DNA from: a virus
DNA: 20,661 bases
Virus record (IMG/VR): IMGVR_UViG_3300045009_000694
Location: 1 to 20,661 of that record
Strand: one strand, 5' to 3'
The notes beneath the pieces are model-generated. The model searched no databases, was not told where the DNA came from, and saw nothing but the letters and a program-made list of their open reading frames with translations. How positions within the stretch are numbered: the first letter of the stretch is position 1; each line of letters starts with the position of its first letter. Positions 6,171-20,599 of this stretch are shown here, in pieces. Made by a program: the position numbers and the translations under genes.

Positions 6171-6785
6171 ATGGCCACCGCCGCCGTCGAGCTCGTCAAC
6201 CAGGCGCTCGCCCTGTTGGGCGAGCGCGGCATCACGAGCTTCGACGACGGCACGGCCATGGCGGGCTCCGCCGCCCAGCTCTACCCCGACACCGTGGCGG
6301 CGCTGCTGGACAGCTATCCGTGGCGATTCGGCCAAACCAAGGCGCGCCTCGCCCGACTGGCCGACCCGCCGCTCGCCGGCTGGAGCTACGCGCATGCGCT
6401 GCCGGCCGACCTGATCCGGCTGCGCGCGCTCTATGCCTCACCCGACGTCGATATGCGGCCCTGCGCGCTCTACGACGTGGCGGAGGGCCGCGTGCTGTCC
6501 AACCAGCCCGAGCTGTGGGCTGACTATCTGCGCGCGCAGGACCCGGCCACCTGGTCTCCGGCGTTCCGCAACCTTGCGCGCTACGCGCTGGCCGCCGACC
6601 TTGCCGTCGCGGTCACCGGATCCACCAGCCAGGCGGACTTCATGCGCCGCATCGCTTTCGGGACGCCGCAGGAGGCCGGCAATGGCGGGTTGATGCAGAC
6701 CGCGCGCCGGCAGGACGCGCAACAGGCGCCGCCGCGCGTCCTCGCCGACGACCCGCTGCTGGCGGCGCGGTTCGGATCACGCTGA
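6171..6785 (+). CDS. Tail tubular protein A (T7 gp11-like adaptor)
   Basis: The 204-residue product shows the family signature of podovirus gp11-type adaptors: an N-terminal ELVNQALALLGERGITSFDD, then LYPDTVAALLDSYPWRFG, a LARL...GWSYAHALPADLIRLRALY block, and a helical C-terminus with FRNLARYALAADLAVAVTGS. Length is close to the T7 protein. It forms the 12-mer ring joining portal to nozzle at the phage neck. No good Shine-Dalgarno precedes ATG 6171, which lies four bases after the previous stop, so coupling is likely. Its stop TGA overlaps the next start by one base (6785). Gene order A then B then internal proteins is exactly that of T7-like phages. Confidence 0.9.
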   Translation: MATAAVELVNQALALLGERGITSFDDGTAMAGSAAQLYPDTVAALLDSYPWRFGQTKARLARLADPPLAGWSYAHALPADLIRLRALYASPDVDMRPCALYDVAEGRVLSNQPELWADYLRAQDPATWSPAFRNLARYALAADLAVAVTGSTSQADFMRRIAFGTPQEAGNGGLMQTARRQDAQQAPPRVLADDPLLAARFGSR

Positions 6786-8704
6786 TGCGCCCCGTCAGGG
6801 TCTCCCAGACCAGTTGGACGGCCGGCGAGCTGGACGCCGGGCTGGCCGGCCGCATCGAGGTGGCGCGCTACTACAGCGGCGCCGCCCTGATGCGGAACGT
6901 CCTCGTGCGGCCGCAGGGTGGGTTCCGCCGCCGGCCTGGCATGGCGCATGTCGCGCTGCTGAGCGGCATCGCCGACAACGTCAAGCTCATCCCCTTCGCC
7001 TTCAACGTCGATCAGAGCTACCTGTTCGTCCTGTCCGACCAGGCGTTCCGGGTGTTCACGCCCGACGGCACGCTGCGCGCCACGGTGACGGGATGCCCCT
7101 GGGATGGCGGGCGCGCCGCGCAGATGAACTTCGCGCAGTCCGCCGACACGCTGCTGCTGTTCCACCCGGACTTCCAGCCGCAGCGCATCGTCCGCGGCGC
7201 CACGCATGCGGACTGGACGCGCGACACCGCGCCGCTGACCGCCATTCCCACCTTCGATTTTGGCGCGCTCACGCCCGCCGGCACCATGACCCCGAGCGCC
7301 ACGAGCGGCAGCGTCACGCTGACCGCCAGCGCCAATGTCTTCGTGGCCGGCCATGTCGGCTGGGAGCTGAAGGGCAACAAGGGCCGCGCGCGGATCACCG
7401 CCGTCGGCAGCGCCACCAGCGCCACCGCCACGGTCGCGGTGCCGTTCGACAGCACCGCCGCCATCGCCGCCACCGACTGGACGCTCGAGGAACCGGTCAT
7501 GTCCAGCACCAGGGGCTGGGCAGAGTGCGGCACGTTCCATGGCGGCCGGCTATGGCTTGGCGGGCTGCGCTCCCGCCCGTCCACCGTGCTCGCCAGCCGC
7601 GTCGGCGCGGTGTTCGACTTCGATCCCGGCACCGGCCTGGACGACCACGCCATCAACGCCACCATCGCCACGGCCCAGCTGAACGCCGTGCATCAGCTTG
7701 TCTCCGGCCGCGCGTTGCAGATCCTGACCAGCGGGGCCGAGCATGCCGTCATGTCGCCGGCGCCGATCACGCCGCGCAACCTCGCCATCGAGCAGCAGAC
7801 CAGCCGCGGCATCCGCCGCTTCGTCGGCACGGTGGAGGTGGACGGCGCCACGCTGTTCGTCGAGCGCACCGGCGCCGCGCTGCGGACCTTCGTCTATGAG
7901 GACGTGGAGCAGGCGTTCAAGGCGGACCTGCTTTCCCTGCTCGCCCCGCATCTGATCCGCTCGCCCGTCGCCATGGCGGCGCGCAAGGGCGCCGCGGCCG
8001 ACGACGCCGACCATGTGCTGCTGGCCTTGCAGGACGGCGCGGTCACCGTGCTGACCACGCTGCGCGCGCAGGAGGTGACGGCATTCTCGCGCTGGGAAAC
8101 AACCGCCGGCGTCGTGCGCTCCGTCGCCGCGCTCGCCTCGGGCGAGGTGTTCTTCGCCGTGATCCGGGCCGGCGCCGTGCGCATCGAGAAGTGGGACGAG
8201 GCGCGGCTGCTGGACGCCGGGGTGCGCGTGGCCACCGGCAGCCCGGTGACCAGCGTCAGCGGCCTCTCGCATCTGGACGGGCGCCAGGTGGCCATGGTGT
8301 TGGACGGGGCCTATGCCGGTCTCGCCACGGTCGCCAGCGGCGCCGTGACCCTGCCGGCCGCGGCGCTGGTCGCGGAGGTAGGCCTGCCCGTGCTCGTGCA
8401 GGTGACCAGCCTGCCGCTTGAGCCGCGCGACCCGACGGGCGCGCTGCTCGGGCGCAAGGCGCGCATCACCGCCATCACGGCGCGGGTGCGCGCGGCCGGT
8501 CTGTTCCGGCTCAACGACCACCCGACGCCGCAGCGCGTGGTGGGCGCCAGCCCGCTCGGCGGGCCGCCGCCCGTGCTCACCACCGACCTGCGCGTCGCCG
8601 GCCTGACCGGATGGCGCGAGCGGCCCGAGGTGACCATCAGCCAGGCCGAGCCGGCGCCGCTCGAAGTGCTGGCCGTCACCACCGAAATGGTCATCGAGAC
8701 CTGA
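6785..8704 (+). CDS. Tail tubular protein B (T7 gp12-like nozzle)
   Basis: The 639-residue protein begins with VSQTSWTAGELDAGLAGRIE, then YYSGAALMRNVLVRPQGGFR and RRPGMAHVALL. This N-terminal signature is typical of podovirus tail nozzle / 'stabilisation' proteins (N-F-x-x-G-E-L-x-P-x-L-x-G-R ... G-x-x-R-R-P-G-T). The rest is beta-rich, with repeated strand pairs compatible with the propeller platform of T7 gp12. A block around residues 235-265 (AECGTFHGGRLWLGGLRSRP followed by TVLASRVGA) is also typical of this family. It would form the hexameric tube at the tail tip with the adaptor encoded just upstream, one base overlapping. Length is somewhat shorter than T7 gp12. No enzymatic motif is visible. 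Confidence 0.88.
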   Translation: MRPVRVSQTSWTAGELDAGLAGRIEVARYYSGAALMRNVLVRPQGGFRRRPGMAHVALLSGIADNVKLIPFAFNVDQSYLFVLSDQAFRVFTPDGTLRATVTGCPWDGGRAAQMNFAQSADTLLLFHPDFQPQRIVRGATHADWTRDTAPLTAIPTFDFGALTPAGTMTPSATSGSVTLTASANVFVAGHVGWELKGNKGRARITAVGSATSATATVAVPFDSTAAIAATDWTLEEPVMSSTRGWAECGTFHGGRLWLGGLRSRPSTVLASRVGAVFDFDPGTGLDDHAINATIATAQLNAVHQLVSGRALQILTSGAEHAVMSPAPITPRNLAIEQQTSRGIRRFVGTVEVDGATLFVERTGAALRTFVYEDVEQAFKADLLSLLAPHLIRSPVAMAARKGAAADDADHVLLALQDGAVTVLTTLRAQEVTAFSRWETTAGVVRSVAALASGEVFFAVIRAGAVRIEKWDEARLLDAGVRVATGSPVTSVSGLSHLDGRQVAMVLDGAYAGLATVASGAVTLPAAALVAEVGLPVLVQVTSLPLEPRDPTGALLGRKARITAITARVRAAGLFRLNDHPTPQRVVGASPLGGPPPVLTTDLRVAGLTGWRERPEVTISQAEPAPLEVLAVTTEMVIET

Positions 8705-9832: not shown

Positions 9833-12504
9833 TGGCCCGCGCCCCGCTGCGCCGCGGCGGCGACACCGCCGCGCCGGCCTTCCCGCTGGCCATCGCGCCG
9901 ACGGCACTGGCCGGCCCCAATGAGCGCGCGTTGCGCGCCGGCATGGACACCGGCGCCGCCACGCTGGCCGACCGCGTGCAGCGCCTGCTTGACCGCAGCC
10001 AGGCCGCGCTGGACCAGGCGGCCGAGCAGGATGCGCTGACCGCCGGCGCCGCCGCGGGCGAGGCCGCCCCGGGCACCCTCATGGAAGGCGGCGGCGCCAT
10101 CTACCAGGCCGCCTACAACCGCGCGGCGGTGGAGACCGGCGCGCGCCGCCTGGAAATCGCCGCGCGCGACCGGCTGGACCAGCTGGCCCGGGAGCATGCC
10201 GCCAACCCCGCCGCCTTCGCCGCGGCCGCGAAAAGCTACCGCGACGGCATGGTGGGCGAGCTGCCCGACCAGCTGCGGCCGCGGATGGCGCAGACCTTCG
10301 ACGCCATCGCGCGCCCCTATGCCGGCCAGATCGCGCAGCAGCACGAACGCCAGGTGGCGGATCAGGCCATCGCGGCGTGGCAGGAGGCGCAGCCGCGCCG
10401 CGAGGCCAGCGTGGAGCGGCTGGCCCGCGCCGCCATGCGCGACCCGGGCGCGCAGCGCGCACTCGAGGCCGAGCTGGACGCCGCCACCACCGACCTGATC
10501 GCCATGGGGCCGCGCGTCGCGTTCGCCGCCGGCAGCCGCAGTTACGAGGCAGACCCCACCCGGGCGGGCGCCTTGAGCGTGGAGCAGGTGACGCGCGCCC
10601 GGCAGGCGCTTCAGGAGCGCGCCGACTATGGCGTTCTCATGGGCGCCTACCAGGCCGGGCCGCGCAGCGAGGCCTGGATCGACGAGGTGGAGAAGCGCGC
10701 GCGCAACCCCGCCGGTGAAGCCGTCTCCGCCCGCGCGCTGCGCGAGGCCGTGCGGGACATGCGCGCCGATCAGGCCGACCGGCGGCGCGCGGCCGCGGAA
10801 GCCAGGGCAGGGGCTTCGGCCGAGCTTCAGCCGATGCTGACGGCCAATGCCGTCGCGCTGGCGCAGACCGGCCGGGTCGTCACCCGGATCCCCGACGAGC
10901 TGTACCGCCGGGCCGGCTGGACCCCGGCGCGCATCGCGCAGCAGCGGGCCTCCGAAACCACGCAGGCGGCCGCCTATGCCACGCGCGCCGAGTTGGCCGC
11001 CGCCGACACGCCCGAGCACGTGAGCGCGCTGGCCGAGCGGTTCGCCGTCGGCTCCCCGTTGTTCCTGGCAGACCCGCGCGCGGCATCGGCCGTGCTGGAC
11101 TATGCCGGCCAGCGCGGCGTGCAGATCAGGGGCGCCAGCCTGACCGCCCGCATCCACGACCTCCAGGCCCAGGCCGACGCGCCGCCGCAGACGGAGGAGC
11201 GCGGCGGCCGCGCGAGGCCCGCCATCACTGCCGAGGAAGGTGCGGCCGCCGGGCTGCGGCCGGAGCAGGTGACGGCCGTCAACGCCGACCTCGCCGAGCG
11301 CGCGCGCCGTGCCGAGCTGCGGGCGCAACTGCTGCGCGCCTCGCCCGACGAGCGCCAGCGCATCACCGCGCAGTTGGAGAGCGCCGACAGCCAGACAGCC
11401 GCGGACGCCGCGGCCGCGCGCGGCGCGGCGCAGGCCATCGAGGCGCAGCGCCGCGGCCTTGCCGAGGCGCCGGCGGACTATGTGATGCAGCTGTACCCCG
11501 CGCTGCGCACCCGCGCCGAGCGCGCCGCCCAGGGCGACATGCCGGCGCTGGCCGGGTTGGTCACCGCCCTGCGCGACGAGCAGACGCGGCTGGGCGTGCC
11601 GGCGCATGTGCAGCAGCCCTTGCCCACCGCCATCACCCAGGGCTTCGTGGCCGCCATCCAGCGCCTGCCCACCGAGCCCGAGCGCGTCGCGCGGCTGCGC
11701 GCCATGCTGGACGCCATGCCCGACCGCGAAACCCGGCAGGCCGTCATCGCCGCCATGCGCAGCGCGGACCTGCCCGAGCCGCTGCTGGCCGGCGCGGCGC
11801 TGGCCCCGCGCATCGGCGACTTCGCGGCCTCGCGCATCGCCACCGAACTCGCGACCGACCCCAAGGACCTCAACCTGGCGCGCGACGTGAAGGCCAGCGT
11901 CGAGACCTATGTGCCGGCCGTGTTCAACGCCGCCGACCGCCTCGGCGGGTTGCGCGCCGCGCAGGCCCAGGCCACCGGCAACGCCGAGTACCTGCGCGCC
12001 GCCGCCGCCGACCGGGACCGGCTGGAACGCATCGTCGCCGTGCGCGCGGGCGCGGCGGGCCGCACCAGCACGGACAGCGTCCGCACCGCCTATCAGCAGT
12101 TGTTCGGCGGGCTGACCGTCGTGCAGCAGGGACAGATCATGGCCGCCGTGCCGACCGGCACCGATGAAGACAAGCTGGAGCGCGGACTGACTGGGCTGCT
12201 CACCGCCGCCCTGGACCAGATGCTGCCCGGCGCGGACCCGCAGCAGCGGCAACTGCGCGCCGCGCTGGCGCGCGGGACCTGGATCGACGCCGCCGATGGC
12301 CGGCTGGTCTTCTACCCCGAGGGTGTGTCCAACCCGCTGCGCGGCCCGCAGGGCGGCCCGCTGACCGTGACGGTGACGGACGCGCTGGCGGCCGCGCCGC
12401 GCGTCGCAGGCCGGCCGACGCCCGAGGAACAGCTCCGCGCCCAGCAGCGCGCCCTGCGCGACCGCGGCCGCGAAATCGCCCGCGAGGCCCAGCAGGCGCC
12501 ATGA
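9832..12504 (+). CDS. Large helical internal virion protein, T7 gp15 position
   Basis: The 890-residue product starts in a TAATG overlap with the lysozyme-like gene. It is almost entirely alpha-helical, rich in A, R, E and Q, with no membrane segment or cysteine-rich motif. An early block (EGGGAIYQAAYNRAAVETGA, then RRLEIAARDRLDQLAREHAA) and a C-terminal block (TAYQQLFGGLTVVQQGQIMA, then a DQMLPGADPQQRQLRAALARG segment) frame long helical repeats. These features, its length and its place after the gp14-like gene match the gp15-type core protein, which forms the periplasmic part of the DNA-ejection channel in T7. The last residues (RALRDRGREIAREAQQAP) overlap the next gene by four bases (ATGA). 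No enzyme domain is recognised; homology to gp15 is by position and composition, not by a diagnostic motif. Confidence 0.65.
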   Translation: MARAPLRRGGDTAAPAFPLAIAPTALAGPNERALRAGMDTGAATLADRVQRLLDRSQAALDQAAEQDALTAGAAAGEAAPGTLMEGGGAIYQAAYNRAAVETGARRLEIAARDRLDQLAREHAANPAAFAAAAKSYRDGMVGELPDQLRPRMAQTFDAIARPYAGQIAQQHERQVADQAIAAWQEAQPRREASVERLARAAMRDPGAQRALEAELDAATTDLIAMGPRVAFAAGSRSYEADPTRAGALSVEQVTRARQALQERADYGVLMGAYQAGPRSEAWIDEVEKRARNPAGEAVSARALREAVRDMRADQADRRRAAAEARAGASAELQPMLTANAVALAQTGRVVTRIPDELYRRAGWTPARIAQQRASETTQAAAYATRAELAAADTPEHVSALAERFAVGSPLFLADPRAASAVLDYAGQRGVQIRGASLTARIHDLQAQADAPPQTEERGGRARPAITAEEGAAAGLRPEQVTAVNADLAERARRAELRAQLLRASPDERQRITAQLESADSQTAADAAAARGAAQAIEAQRRGLAEAPADYVMQLYPALRTRAERAAQGDMPALAGLVTALRDEQTRLGVPAHVQQPLPTAITQGFVAAIQRLPTEPERVARLRAMLDAMPDRETRQAVIAAMRSADLPEPLLAGAALAPRIGDFAASRIATELATDPKDLNLARDVKASVETYVPAVFNAADRLGGLRAAQAQATGNAEYLRAAAADRDRLERIVAVRAGAAGRTSTDSVRTAYQQLFGGLTVVQQGQIMAAVPTGTDEDKLERGLTGLLTAALDQMLPGADPQQRQLRAALARGTWIDAADGRLVFYPEGVSNPLRGPQGGPLTVTVTDALAAAPRVAGRPTPEEQLRAQQRALRDRGREIAREAQQAP

Positions 12505-14948
12505 GCGACACGCTGGCCACCTTCCTGCCGGCGCCGCGGGACACCGCCAGCGCCGATGCCCTGGCCGCCGGCATCGGCAGCTTCTCGCCGCCGCTGGGGG
12601 AATACCTCGGCGCGGCCGCCGCCGAAGCGTTCAACACCGGCACCCTGGCCGGCCGCGCCATCGAGAGCACGCGCCTGCGCCGTGCCGAGCTGTACGCCGA
12701 GGAGCAAGACCTCGCGCCACTGGCCGAACCGGACTGGCGCGCCGGGCCGCTGTATCGCGAGGGGCTGCCCTACCGGCCCGGCCTGACCGTCGCCGCCGCC
12801 CGCGCCTTGGCCGACATCGTGGACGAACGCCAGCAGCGACGCGCCTTGCTCTCCGCCGGCGATCCCAGCTTTGGCCGGCAGGCTCTCGGCTTCGCGGCCG
12901 GCGTCGCCGCCAGCCTGCCCACGCCCGAAAACTTCCTGCCTTTCGCCGCGCCGGCGTTGCGCGCGGCGCAGGGCTTTCGCTACGCCCGCGGCCTGGCCGC
13001 CGCCATCGAGCGCGGCGCGCAGGGCGGCGTCGGGGCGCGGCTGGCCGCCGGCGCCGCCACCGGCGCGCTGGACGCCACCATCGGCAATGCGCTGGTCCTG
13101 CCCATCATCGCCGCCAACCGTGAGGCGTTCGGCGACGACGTGACCTTCGCCGACACGGCGCTTGACCTCGCGTTCGGCGCGGTCGGCGGCGCCGTGCTGG
13201 GCGGCGGCGCCGGGGCGGTGCTCGGCCGCGCAGCGCCGACGCCGGCCATGCAGGACACCGCGCTGCGCGCCCTGACCGCGGCCGCCACCGACATCGCCGC
13301 CGGCCGCAGCCCGGACTTCTCCATGGCGTCGCCCGTGGAACGGCTGACCATCGAGGCCTTGCAGGCCGAGATCGCCAAGCTGCGCGCCATGCAGCAGCCG
13401 GAGGGCGACGCCAGCGTTTCCGGCCGCGCCGCCGCCCGGCCCCTCATGGCCAGCGGCGCCGCCGCGCCCGGCGCCGACACCCGCATCACCACGCCCGCCG
13501 GCATGGAAGTCACCGCCCGGTGGGAGGTGGTCGAGGGTGCGGACCTGATCACCAGCCACAGCCTGCCGGACTTCAAGCCGGACGCGCGCTTTCCGCCCGA
13601 GTTGCAGAACCGCGACCGCGCGGCGGCGGAACGTCAGGCGGAGGTGCTGGACCGCGCGGCCCGGCTGCGGCCCGAGCAGGTGGAGGCCAGCGCCACCACC
13701 GACACGGGCGCGCCCATCGTCGGACCCGACGGGTTGGTCGAAAGCGGCAACGGCCGGACCTTGTCCATCCTCTCCGCCTATCAGCAGGGCCTGCCGACCG
13801 CCCAGGCGTATCGCGCCTTTCTGATGCGCCTCGGCTTCGACGCCGCCGCCACGATGCGCGAGCCCGTGCTGATCCGGCGCCGGACCTCGGAGCTGGACGC
13901 GGCCGCGCGCCGCCGGTTCGCCGAGGAAAGCAACACCCCGACCATCGAGGCGCTGGCGCCGGCCGAGCAGGCGCTGACCGACGCCCAGCGCCTCACCCCG
14001 GAGGTGCTTGCGCTGCTGCGCGGTCGCGACCCGGCGGCCGCCGCCAACGCCGACTTCGTGCGCGCCTTCGCCGGCGCCCTGCCTGGCCGCGAGGGCCGAG
14101 CCCTGTCGGCCGACGGCACGCTGACCGCCGACGGCGCAACCCGCGTCCGCCGGGCGCTGGCCGCGCGCGCCTATGGCGCCTCGCCGCTCATCGCGCGTCT
14201 GGCGCAGGACCCGGATGCGCTCGGGCCGCTCGGCCGCGCGCTGTTCGACGCGGCGCCGCAGCTTGCGCGGCTGCGCGCCGCCATCGACGCCGGCCAGGTG
14301 CGGCCGCAACTCGACTTCGTGCCGGCATTGATGCGCGCGGCGCAGCGCATCGCGCAGGCGGCGGACGCGGGCCGCGAACCTGCGGCCGCGCTGCGGCAAG
14401 GCGACCTGGTTGATCCGCCCAGCCCGGCCGAGGCCGCCATGCTGGAGCTGCTGCTGCGCCATCCGGTGCGCGACCAGCTCGGCGGCGTTGGCCGCGACAC
14501 GCTGGCCGAGCGCATGGAGACCATGGCCGACCGTGCCATGGCCGCGCCGCGTGACCCCGACATGTTCGGCGCGCCGCCGCCCGGGCTCGGCGACGTGCTG
14601 CGCGCGGCCTTCCGCGCGGCCGGGATCGAGCCGCAAACCGCGCTGCGCGACCTGGACGCGGACACCTGGCAGCCGCCCCCCGTAACGCCCGACCCAGTGC
14701 CGGATGTGCCGGAGCCCAGCCTGCCCGGCGCGCCGGCGCGCGACCCCACAGTCACGGCGGCCGAGACGCGCGGCTACGACCTCGCCAACGCCTCCGCCAT
14801 GCGCGCCGAGGCCGAGCGGCTGGCGGCCGGCAATGCCCTGCCGCTCGAGCTGGCGGCCGAGCTGCGCGAGGCGCTGGACCTCGAGGTCCGCATGGCCAAT
14901 GCCGACGCGGCGTTCCAGGCCGCCGCCACCTGCGCGTTGGGGGGCTGA
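12501..14948 (+). CDS. Ejection-block protein with ddrB-type ParB domain (polyvalent-protein-like)
   Basis: The 815-residue protein has three parts. Residues 1-260 hold Ala-rich helices and glycine-rich hydrophobic stretches (for example AFGAVGGAVLGGGAGAVLG), possibly membrane-interacting. Residues of about 334-498 match the ddrB-like ParB superfamily: VTARWEVVEGADLITSHSLP; a helical stretch with RAARLRPEQVEAS; VESGNGRTLSI (N417-G418-R419), like the ParB nucleotide-binding box; and FAEESNTPTIEALAPAEQAL. Residues of about 500-815 are helical and Pro/Ala-rich. The ddrB-ParB domain was described in large 'polyvalent' proteins of phages and conjugative elements that enter the host with the DNA and are thought to counter host defence. 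Here it sits between gp15- and gp16-position genes, overlapping the former by four bases, which supports injection. Nucleotide hydrolysis or DNA binding is not shown. Domain recognition is by motif. Confidence 0.7.
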   Translation: MSDTLATFLPAPRDTASADALAAGIGSFSPPLGEYLGAAAAEAFNTGTLAGRAIESTRLRRAELYAEEQDLAPLAEPDWRAGPLYREGLPYRPGLTVAAARALADIVDERQQRRALLSAGDPSFGRQALGFAAGVAASLPTPENFLPFAAPALRAAQGFRYARGLAAAIERGAQGGVGARLAAGAATGALDATIGNALVLPIIAANREAFGDDVTFADTALDLAFGAVGGAVLGGGAGAVLGRAAPTPAMQDTALRALTAAATDIAAGRSPDFSMASPVERLTIEALQAEIAKLRAMQQPEGDASVSGRAAARPLMASGAAAPGADTRITTPAGMEVTARWEVVEGADLITSHSLPDFKPDARFPPELQNRDRAAAERQAEVLDRAARLRPEQVEASATTDTGAPIVGPDGLVESGNGRTLSILSAYQQGLPTAQAYRAFLMRLGFDAAATMREPVLIRRRTSELDAAARRRFAEESNTPTIEALAPAEQALTDAQRLTPEVLALLRGRDPAAAANADFVRAFAGALPGREGRALSADGTLTADGATRVRRALAARAYGASPLIARLAQDPDALGPLGRALFDAAPQLARLRAAIDAGQVRPQLDFVPALMRAAQRIAQAADAGREPAAALRQGDLVDPPSPAEAAMLELLLRHPVRDQLGGVGRDTLAERMETMADRAMAAPRDPDMFGAPPPGLGDVLRAAFRAAGIEPQTALRDLDADTWQPPPVTPDPVPDVPEPSLPGAPARDPTVTAAETRGYDLANASAMRAEAERLAAGNALPLELAAELREALDLEVRMANADAAFQAAATCALGG

Positions 14949-18084: not shown

Positions 18085-19788
18085 ATGTCCGTCACCACCA
18101 TCCCGACCAACGACCGGGTCGAGCGGTTCACCGCCACGGCCGGTCAGGTTGCCTTCCCGTTCGACTTCCCGGTCTTCGCGGAAACCGACCTGCGCGTGCT
18201 GCGCCTGCGCGCCGGCGTCGAGACGCTGCTGACCCGCGCCACCGACTACACGGTGACCGGCGCCGGCCAGCAGGCGGGCGGCACCGTGACCCTGACCGCC
18301 GGAGCCCAGGCCGGCGACATCATCGTCATCCGCTCGGGCCAGCCGGTCGCGCGCACCACGCAGTTCTACGATGGCGGCCCGCTGCCGGCGGCCGCCATCA
18401 ACGCCGAGCTCAACCGGCTGTTCGTCGTCTTGCAGCAGTTCGCCGCGGATGCGGCGCTGACCATGCGCGCGGCCGAGAGCGACGCCTCGCCCGGCCGGCT
18501 GCCGCCGCAGGCTGCGCGCATCGGCCGGCTGCTGGGGTTCGACGGCGCCGGCCAGTTCTCGCTCTACGCCCTGACCCTCAACGGCGGCACGTTCACCGTC
18601 ACCCCGTACTCCGCGACGCTGCTGGCCAGTGCCGACCAGGCCGCATGGCGCGCGGCGCTCGGGCTCGGCACAGCCGCCACCCTGAACGCCGGCAATGTCG
18701 GCGGACAGGTTATGCAGGCGGGAACCGCGCTGGCGGTGCGGCAGACCGCAGGTATCACCGCCACCGGCGACGCATTGGCGACGGCCGCCTCTGCCGTGGA
18801 AGCGCGCGCCGCCATCGGGGCGGCCGCAGTCGGACGCAACCGGCTGCTCAATGGCTCCATGCGTCTCGACAGCCGCAACGGCGGCGGCGAGGTGACCGAC
18901 GTCAACGGCTATACGCTGGACCGCTGGTACTGCGGTCGGGCCGGCGGGGCCGCCGGGCTCTCCGTGTTGCAGAACCTGAATGTCCCGGCCGGCTTCGCAC
19001 GCAGTCTCCAGCTGCGGCGCGCCACCGGCAATGCGCTCACCGCGCGCATCGACGCGATCCAGACGATGGAGGTGGCGGACACGCTGGACCTCTCCGGCAA
19101 GACCGTCACGCTCAGTTTCTGGGCTCGCGCGGGTGCCAACTACTCGGGCGGCGCGCTGACTGCGGCTGTCGGCGCCGGCACGGGTGCCGCCGATGCCCAC
19201 TATTACAACTTCACCGGCGCCACCTCGCCCGTGCTCAGCCTTGTCACGCTGACCACCGCCTGGCAGCAGTTCAATTTGACCGGGACAATCCCCAGCGGGA
19301 CGTCGCAGGTGGCGGTGGTGTTCAACTGGACGCCGGCCGCCGCGGCCGCCGGCGCTGACGACGCGGTGTACATCACCGGCGTGCAGCTCGAGGACGGCGG
19401 CAACGTCACCGCCTTCGAGCACACGCCGCTTGCCGTTTTGGCGGGCGCCTGCCGGCGGTACTTCCAGGTGCTGGGCGACGGCACGGTCGGCCAGGCGATG
19501 GCCGCCGGCGTCGGCACGGCCGGCACGACGGCGGATGCGGCGCTGACCTTCGAGACGATGCGGGCACCGCCCACCGTCGCGGTGTCTGCCGCCTCGCACT
19601 TCGGACTCTTCGACGGGCTCGGCTCGGGGGCGGCAACGGCGCTGGCGGCGAACCTGATCACGGCCCGCAGCGCGCGGCTTCAGACGACGGCCGGCGGCAC
19701 GGTGACGGCCGCCAGCCGGGCGGTGCTGATCCGGACCACCCATGCGGCGGCCCGGCTGCGGCTGGATGCGGAGATCAATCCGGCGTAG
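18085..19788 (+). CDS. Tail fibre protein with T7 gp17-type N-terminus
   Basis: The 567-residue product begins VTTIPTNDRVERFTATAGQV, then FPFDFPVFAETDLRVLRL, a TDYTVTGAG segment, VTLTAGAQAGDIIVIRSGQP, and a helix with AAINAELNRLFVVLQQFA. This is the order of elements of the T7 tail-fibre N-terminal domain that attaches to the tail tube (about 1-130). A short shaft follows with LGLGTAATLNAGNVGGQ-type repeats. From N252 (NRLLNGSMRLDSRN) to the end is a jelly-roll-like receptor-binding module with an internal SGKTVTLSFWARAGANYSG block and an ACRRYFQVLGDG motif, sharing architecture with the C-terminal half of the spike at 2753. It ends the plus-strand block with TAG at 19786-19788. The fibre determines host range by surface binding. 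No chaperone or autocleavage domain is seen. Confidence 0.87.
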   Translation: MSVTTIPTNDRVERFTATAGQVAFPFDFPVFAETDLRVLRLRAGVETLLTRATDYTVTGAGQQAGGTVTLTAGAQAGDIIVIRSGQPVARTTQFYDGGPLPAAAINAELNRLFVVLQQFAADAALTMRAAESDASPGRLPPQAARIGRLLGFDGAGQFSLYALTLNGGTFTVTPYSATLLASADQAAWRAALGLGTAATLNAGNVGGQVMQAGTALAVRQTAGITATGDALATAASAVEARAAIGAAAVGRNRLLNGSMRLDSRNGGGEVTDVNGYTLDRWYCGRAGGAAGLSVLQNLNVPAGFARSLQLRRATGNALTARIDAIQTMEVADTLDLSGKTVTLSFWARAGANYSGGALTAAVGAGTGAADAHYYNFTGATSPVLSLVTLTTAWQQFNLTGTIPSGTSQVAVVFNWTPAAAAAGADDAVYITGVQLEDGGNVTAFEHTPLAVLAGACRRYFQVLGDGTVGQAMAAGVGTAGTTADAALTFETMRAPPTVAVSAASHFGLFDGLGSGAATALAANLITARSARLQTTAGGTVTAASRAVLIRTTHAAARLRLDAEINPA

Positions 19789-19866: not shown

Positions 19867-19888
19867 GCCACACCTAGCAGCGTGTGGC
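19867..19888. other. 7-bp hairpin abutting the CRISPR-like repeat pair
   Basis: GCCACAC at 19867-19873 is perfectly complementary to GTGTGGC at 19882-19888, with an 8-base loop (CTAGCAGC). It ends at the base before the first CRISPR-like unit (19889). No T-run follows on either strand. On the minus strand it lies immediately 3' of the repeats and could cap or terminate an RNA containing them. The preceding bases 19799-19860 are the least GC-rich stretch of the window and show no coding frame. Confidence 0.5.
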
Positions 19889-19968
19889 CGGATAATCCCC
19901 GCCTCGCGGGGAACACAGTGGCGGCATGCACCAGCACGCCGGACCATCCCCGCAATCGCGGGGACTAT
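19889..19968 (-). CRISPR. Two type I-E-like CRISPR repeats with a 23-base gap (mini-array or solitary repeat units)
   Basis: Unit 1 is 19889-19916 (28 bases) and unit 2 is 19940-19968 (29 bases). On the minus strand unit 1 starts GTGTTCCCCGCG, then AG, then GCGGGGAT and TATCCG. The I-E repeat of E. coli type begins G-TTCCCCGCG, has a short loop, then GCGGGGAT and ends ACCG over 29 bases. Unit 2 keeps TCCCCGCG / GCGGGGAT and the final CCG but has lost the GTGT start. The spacer-like interval, 19917-19939, is 23 bases, against 32 normally. There is no third unit 51 or 61 bases to either side, no AT-rich leader and no cas gene. Translated in one plus-strand frame the units give NPRLAGN and HPRNRGD, the familiar spurious peptides of I-E arrays. 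The alternative is a pair of terminator hairpins between convergent genes, though T-runs are absent. Confidence 0.5.
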
Positions 19969-19972
19969 GGCG

Positions 19973-20599
19973 CTACGCGTGGGCCGCGTACTGCTCTAGC
20001 GCTGCCAGCCGCGCACGCAAATCGCGCGCCACTGCCGGCCCGATCCAAACCGCCAGCGCGCGCGCGTCGGACAGAACCGCGGGCGACGGCGCCTCGTCGC
20101 GCGCGCCGGACGCCCAGCGCTGCATTGTGCGCGGCGATATTTTCAGATCGCGCGCGAGCGGCGAGACCCAATCGTCACCGTACAGCGCTTGACCTATGCG
20201 CCGAAGCGCCTCGCGCCGCTCGTGCCGCGCTGCCGCGTCACGCGCATCGAGCAGGCGCAGTATTGCGTCGTCGCCTAGGTACTGACTGATCTCCTCAGCA
20301 GCCGTGCGCGGGCGGTCCGCCAGCTGCCGGTCGGGCGACAACGGCATCGCCGACACCGACCAGATCACGCGGCCACGGGCGGTCAGTTCGACCGCCGCGT
20401 GACCGTGCGCAGCCGCCAACGCCAGCCGCAACACGGCTGCGCGCCAGAGATCGGCCCAGTCGGCGGCGGCCGACGGCACCGCCATCTCGGCCGCGATCTC
20501 GGCAGCCCACTCGCCCGGGGTCGGTTCGTCTGCCAGGATCAGAACGCCATCGTGCTCGCGGTGCGGTACGTCTCCCCCGCGCTCGGCCACACGGGCCAC
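19973..20599 (-). CDS. Helix-turn-helix protein, leftward, possibly 5'-truncated by the window
   Basis: The leftward frame gives 208 residues from GTG at 20599-20597. The frame stays open to the window edge with no Shine-Dalgarno before that GTG, so the true start may lie beyond 20661 or at ATG 20485-20483 (MAVPSAAADW). Residues of about 127-165 form a helix-turn-helix: RREALRRIGQALYGDDWVSP, then LARDLKISPRTMQRWASG, the recognition helix lying near SPRTMQRW. This 'ALYG..W...LARDL.IS.RT.QRW..G' pattern is frequent in small DNA-binding proteins of alphaproteobacteria and their phages. The N-terminal 120 residues are not recognised. It converges on the tail fibre and stops four bases before the CRISPR-like units, so readthrough RNA would carry them in crRNA sense. 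It may be an early regulator, or, speculatively, a controller of the adjacent element. Confidence 0.65.
   Translation of the reverse strand: MARVAERGGDVPHREHDGVLILADEPTPGEWAAEIAAEMAVPSAAADWADLWRAAVLRLALAAAHGHAAVELTARGRVIWSVSAMPLSPDRQLADRPRTAAEEISQYLGDDAILRLLDARDAAARHERREALRRIGQALYGDDWVSPLARDLKISPRTMQRWASGARDEAPSPAVLSDARALAVWIGPAVARDLRARLAALEQYAAHA

Follow-up and report, generated by a model that had tools for sequence, protein, structure and literature searches.

The RNA anti-CRISPRs known so far, the Racr elements, are single repeat mimics, or solitary repeat units, carried by phages. Cas6f binds and cleaves RacrIF1, which then nucleates a complex of Cas6f and Cas7f; Cas5f and Cas8f are missing from this complex because RacrIF1 has no 5' handle, and two RacrIE candidates inhibit the type I-E system of P. 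aeruginosa (PMC10651486). The survey that defined these elements removed every clustered unit: SRUFinder drops clusters as well as units with partial repeats within 100 bp, so that any tight-cluster architecture falls outside the published survey by design. Two further systems bear comparison. Viral mini-arrays also consist of few repeats on a viral genome without cas genes; their repeats are identical to those of the host, and their full-length spacers match related viruses (PMC6858448, PMC11656645). In the archaeal type I-B system CreA/CreR, degenerate repeats flank a short guide-like stretch, and type I-B spacers that measure 24 nt or less still mediate repression, though interference and priming are lost (PMC10989794).

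The locus that we compare with these systems lies in IMG/VR virus record IMGVR_UViG_3300045009_000694, whose whole linear sequence of 20,661 bases (GC 73%) was analysed and is referred to here as the window. The window encodes podovirus virion genes, among them those for homologues of tail tube proteins A (6171-6785) and B (6785-8704), for a T7-capsid-assembly-like protein (49-717), and for internal and structural virion proteins. An 815-residue protein (12501-14948, plus strand), encoded where an internal virion protein would be expected, contains a ddrB-like ParB domain (PF18763, E 1.6e-27). The tail fibre gene (18085-19788, plus strand) is convergent with a gene for a helix-turn-helix (HTH) protein (19973-20599, minus strand; 208 residues from a GTG codon, with a frame that stays open to the window end), in whose product the helix-turn-helix-like part is C-terminal. 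A pair of repeat units sits between the two convergent gene ends, at 19788 and 19973. An earlier reading made from the sequence only had placed this pair in a non-coding gap within the virion gene cluster; the gap is there, but it is the end of the cluster, between the tail-fibre and HTH genes, and not its inside. Just 4 nt separate the HTH stop codon from the start of unit A in the leftward sense and, because unit A follows that stop codon on the same strand, a leftward transcript of the HTH gene would include both units in its 3' UTR.

The two I-E-like units are present where the sequence-only reading had reported them, at 19889-19968 on the minus strand. Unit A (ATAGTCCCCGCGATTGCGGGGATGGTCCG; 19940-19968) is 29 nt long and has the putative 5' handle AUGGUCCG, while unit B (GTGTTCCCCGCGAGGCGGGGATTATCCG; 19889-19916) is 28 nt long, its loop being shorter by one base. 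The two units differ in sequence from each other, and the stems are intact in both. The interval between them (GCGTGCTGGTGCATGCCGCCACT; 19917-19939, minus strand) is indeed below normal length, at 23 nt against the 32 nt of a normal I-E spacer, a difference of 9 nt, and the core-to-core spacing of the units is 52. A hairpin, CGGCGTGC-TGGT-GCATGCCG (19923-19942, minus strand; CGGCGUGC-UGGU-GCAUGCCG as RNA), joins the end of the unit A handle to the interval, and handle and interval together fold at the 2nd percentile of shuffled sequences, as compared with the 15th for the interval by itself. A 7-bp hairpin, GCCACAC...GTGTGGC (19867-19888, minus strand), adjoins unit B on its downstream side, read leftward; it has no T run and is not a typical terminator. 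No third unit was found in the window, even with a loosened pattern, and the record has no Cas6e; the earlier statement that there is neither a third repeat nor any cas gene holds in its first part and, in its second, for Cas6e, the cas gene searched for. No sigma-70-like promoter of the pair's own is predicted, nor is a terminator at the pair, the sole predicted site being distant (20118-20136, plus strand). Units A and B can also pair with each other (-57 versus -39.5 kcal/mol for the local hairpins). We considered this long inter-unit hairpin as a sign of some other function and rejected it, since 78% of I-E pairs from true arrays likewise lose both local stems.

The pair resembles I-E repeats beyond chance in both stem and flanks, and does so in one orientation only. 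A shuffled window is expected to contain the bare stem pattern of unit A 0.01 times, hairpins with stem and AT occur at 0.007 per window in 2000 shuffled windows, and in none of 2000 shuffled windows are the flanks as I-E-like as those of the weaker unit. Given the stems, the flanks have p values of 0.002 (A) and 0.0003 (B) under a profile trained on unrelated 61-nt arrays that were selected without flank information; this profile replaced an earlier one that was circular, its search pattern having been derived from the window. The antisense reading of the flanks gives random-like scores, in agreement with the leftward sense strand proposed earlier. Whole units also match the repeats of independent arrays better than hairpins of the same composition do (p = 0.015 for A and 0.002 for B), and with alphaproteobacterial repeats alone the values are 0.069 (A) and <0.001 (B); a stronger whole-unit result was obtained with a library found by a window-derived pattern and is partly circular. 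The assignment to type I-E is upheld by these flank and whole-unit matches, and the outcome that the sequence-only reading had named as fatal to it, that no host repeat would match better than shuffled GC hairpins, is not what we observe. Among the real repeats compared, unit A is closest to those of Streptomyces spp. (25/29), and unit B differs from the Arenimonas composti I-E repeat by one gap and one mismatch (26/28 aligned, net score 26 of 29). Compared with the repeats used here, both units lie below the SRUFinder cut-off, which asks for 90% or more identity along 90% or more of a known repeat. The pair does not reach the gathering score of the Rfam CRISPR repeat families, and neither does a real I-E array (L132), so that these families do not discriminate here.

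With RacrIE1 and RacrIE2 the pair thus has in common that it is a phage-borne repeat mimic, lies in a non-coding gap without cas genes and is degenerate relative to real repeats; by analogy, processing by a Cas6 of the matching subtype would be expected (PMC10651486). It differs in consisting of two units, 23 nt apart, instead of one, in an interval that folds on itself and leaves a handle in place, in an identity below the 90% cut-off, and in that it lies in a 3' UTR and has no predicted promoter. A unit counts as solitary if the 100 bp around it are free of further units and partial repeats, and here the second unit is 23 nt away. The pair is by definition not a solitary repeat unit; it may act in a Racr-like way.

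We scanned IMG/VR with repeat patterns and then scored neighbouring I-E-like units, an approach whose counts are lower bounds. Two populations emerged: at least 229 non-redundant intervals with a spacing of 61 nt, which are the true arrays, as against at least 35 with a spacing of 43-57 nt. The latter come from at least 26 records (the window and about 25 other phage records) and are mostly spaced at 48-50 nt, with at least 16 at exactly 49; the spacing of 52 found in the window is shared by locus L176 and is off this mode. Spacings of 26-42 nt were absent among the matches listed, although the search largely allowed them. We stress that many of the cluster records probably belong to one host group and are maybe related by descent, so that record counts are not counts of independent events. 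Cas6e was detected in none of the 27 cluster-bearing phage records, window included, and in all three bacterial genomes with I-E arrays that served as controls. As to the spacings themselves, the favoured 49 (at least 16 of 35) and the 43 also seen equal 61 minus 12 and 61 minus 18, and at least 19 of 35 are 1 modulo 6. Such spacing would fit the 6-nt crRNA footprint of Cas7; shared descent is also possible, and the window, at 52, deviates.

Tight clusters occur in seven loci (L005, L011, L028, L047, L143, L156 and L199) that we take to be actinophages by their likeness to the Streptomyces phage clusters, and in L155 and L176, the latter near apparent virion genes. Locus L184 has an I-E-like pair with terminase genes nearby and a terminator immediately after the pair. 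IMG/VR phage 2788500359_000001 (L252) carries four units with a strong terminator directly behind them and a lysozyme-like gene near; the handles AUGGUCCG and AUGAUCCG and short folding intervals (21 nt in L252) are common to it and the window, from which it differs in the number of units, in the terminator, and in genes that are unrelated as far as compared. When the window element itself was used as the query, 16 Streptomyces phage records were the only matches among 50,697 phage records, and these were weak (E 0.9-3). The Streptomyces phage clusters comprise six degenerate units in a 365-bp non-coding gap, at spacings of 61, 60, 58, 49 and 51, and the named six-unit precedents are the phages Piccadilly, Ignacio, Eklok and others. 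They share with the window the degenerate I-E units, some spacing below 61 and the non-coding gap, and differ from it in having more units, mixed spacing and hosts of another phylum. In Piccadilly, Eklok, HFrancette (host S. sanglieri) and ZL12 (L256, L257, L258 and L260), three to six degenerate I-E-like units lie unannotated in non-coding gaps, the cluster of ZL12 being a separate one. Besides Cas6e and I-E arrays, Glycomyces arizonensis carries a mimic unit that is also present in a 36.9-kb IMG/VR viral contig. We found no description of such tight clusters in the open-access journal literature that was searched.

Solitary units were observed as well. On two Nocardia chromosomes (L110, L141), a single hairpin resembling an I-E repeat (e.g. 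GTGTTCCCCGCGATGGCGGGGATGATCCG) directly precedes a small, very basic open reading frame (MGKRGRKKRSRKGNAANHGKRPNA), and is perhaps an element of the 5' UTR or a repeat mimic of the cell's own. Near base 600 of L399 there is a solitary unit like an I-F repeat (TTTACTGCCGAATAGGCAGAAAAAG), which may be a mimic of one; a gene related to the HTH gene of the window lies about 0.9 kb away.

In the short clusters, the interval and the last bases of the handle often form a hairpin. The median folding percentile per record is 0.18 for short clusters and 0.47 for true spacers (p=1e-5 by a Mann-Whitney test, and 3e-5 when the window is left out). Because the idea arose from inspecting the first records, the test was also made on a held-out set of 15 intervals not inspected beforehand, with a median of 0.23 (p=0.004). 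Pairing of the handle bases themselves is weakly raised (p=0.04). Given that true spacers show no folding bias, the intervals of short clusters are unlikely to be guides acquired from DNA; self-folding intervals fit blocked handles or guides, not acquired spacers.

The host of the phage is probably alphaproteobacterial, because the tail tube protein B homologue (E<=1e-30) is far commoner in the Alphaproteobacteria sample (64 of 337 genomes) than in that of the Gammaproteobacteria (2 of 321), the class names of these samples resting on their centre genomes, Belnapia and Arenimonas. Cas6e is encoded by 15 of 385 genomes of this likely host class (about 4%), with repeats such as GTGTTCCCCGCACCTGCGGGGATGAACCG. 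Among named phages there are no close relatives by DNA, and in protein the tail tube protein B homologue gives the best similarity (34% identity). In the viral relatives and in about 40 prophage stretches, we found neither repeat units nor a homologue of the HTH gene behind the tail fibre gene. That related phages would keep the repeats and not the interval could not be shown, the relatives being without the element altogether, and since no relative keeps it, selection in this lineage cannot be shown.

Directly established are the units with their orientation and spacing, their likeness to I-E repeats beyond chance, the absence of Cas6e, the likely host class and the recurrence of the architecture. 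We hypothesize, and consider rather probable, that the element, with its two units, mimics host type I-E repeats and acts as a Racr-like RNA decoy. The leftward transcript of the HTH gene would carry both units in its 3' UTR, and host Cas6e would bind and cut each hairpin. The product would be a stunted crRNA-like RNA made up of the handle AUGGUCCG, the 23-nt interval folded with the end of that handle, and the unit B hairpin; it would occupy Cas6e and perhaps Cas7, with no resulting Cascade able to find and destroy DNA. Transcription, cutting by Cas6e, sequestration and the benefit to the phage are steps that we infer. The hypothesis is supported by the resemblance beyond chance in one orientation, by the recurrence of short spacing in about 25 other phage records, by the absence of Cas6e, by the occurrence of I-E systems in the likely host class and by the self-folding of the intervals, which decoys would predict and decayed arrays or usable guides would not. 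Several points count against it. Relatives are without the element, the share of genomes with type I-E in the likely host class is as low as about 4%, and, in contrast to the actinophage clusters, the pair has no predicted promoter or terminator of its own. Unit A matches alphaproteobacterial repeats no better than fairly (p=0.069), its spacing from unit B is off the modal 49, and the two units can pair with each other, though true arrays pair likewise. The sequence-only reading had suggested, from the precedent of solitary units and mini-arrays, that the element could load host Cas6e/Cascade with defective guides; recurrent short spacing and self-folding intervals strengthen that suggestion, and the element's absence from relatives and its being a pair rather than a solitary unit weaken it. 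Escherichia coli Cascade with shortened spacers was reportedly the subject of a study in 2016; the short-spacer argument made here rests on type I-B data.

Those same type I-B data also underlie the main mechanistic rival, in which the 23-nt interval is a short guide that, in the manner of CreA/CreR, directs host Cascade onto a host or phage promoter and represses it without cutting. The length of the interval fits, as type I-B spacers of 21-24 bp give strong repression but neither interference nor priming and, for a natural crRNA-like RNA, an 11-bp seed match suffices (PMC10989794); host Cascade would be used in both cases. CreA/CreR, however, is not of type I-E, and the window has no toxin gene or known target. 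The interval folds with the handle, as in the other clusters, which would hinder guiding, and a near-full target was not found in IMG/VR. We regard a short guide as unlikely, the self-folding interval speaking against it.

The pair might instead be a decaying relic of a host I-E array acquired by the phage, with which the degenerate units, the lack of a leader, cas gene and third repeat, and the relatives without the element would agree. A relic should preserve the 61-nt spacing, whereas across many phages we observe a pile-up at 48-52 and, among the matches listed, nothing at 26-42; moreover, random decay does not make self-folding intervals, and the stems are intact in both units. We find this explanation quite improbable. 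Much the same weight attaches to a bidirectional terminator, or a stabiliser of mRNA 3' ends, whose likeness to I-E repeats is due to chance: the pair does lie between two convergent gene ends, and both of its strands fold more strongly than shuffled sequences, but neither hairpin is followed by a T run on either strand, no terminator is predicted there, and a terminator has no need of I-E-like flanks, which are found on one strand only.

A working viral mini-array against a competing phage has precedent in the mini-arrays that target related viruses, and yet is very improbable here, as those have host-identical repeats and spacers with viral matches, whereas units A and B differ, the interval is 9 nt short, and no protospacer for it was found among the 2.9 million viral contigs of IMG/VR with a pattern that ignored every sixth base; the locus also departs from a functional I-E array in its period of 52 instead of 61 and in the absence of Cas6e from the record. 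That the neighbouring HTH protein binds to the pair, as to an operator, is equally remote, for although an HTH relative (65% over 37 residues) lies within about 100 bp of the I-E-like pair in L184, this is the sole case among 80 HTH-gene loci, and the window has its pair 3' of the HTH gene, not before it. The same count led us to discard the HTH gene as a partner or Aca-like marker of the units.

Returning to the decoy hypothesis, we put forward, as a tentative generalization, that multi-unit RNA anti-CRISPRs form a class which has been overlooked and which includes the window. These would be clusters of degenerate I-E units with a spacing of about 49 nt and intervals that fold with the 5' handle, so that Cas6e would release from them stunted crRNA-like RNAs with blocked handles, and these would titrate Cas6e and Cas7. 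The class would be widespread in actinophages and present in some phages of other hosts, and would have been missed by searches that discard clustered repeats. If it is true that tight clusters are decoys, filtering has removed from view an entire layer of phage counter-defence, that of cultured Streptomyces phages included. Their short self-folding intervals offer a testable idea, namely that a phage exploits the processing enzyme of its host without supplying a usable guide.
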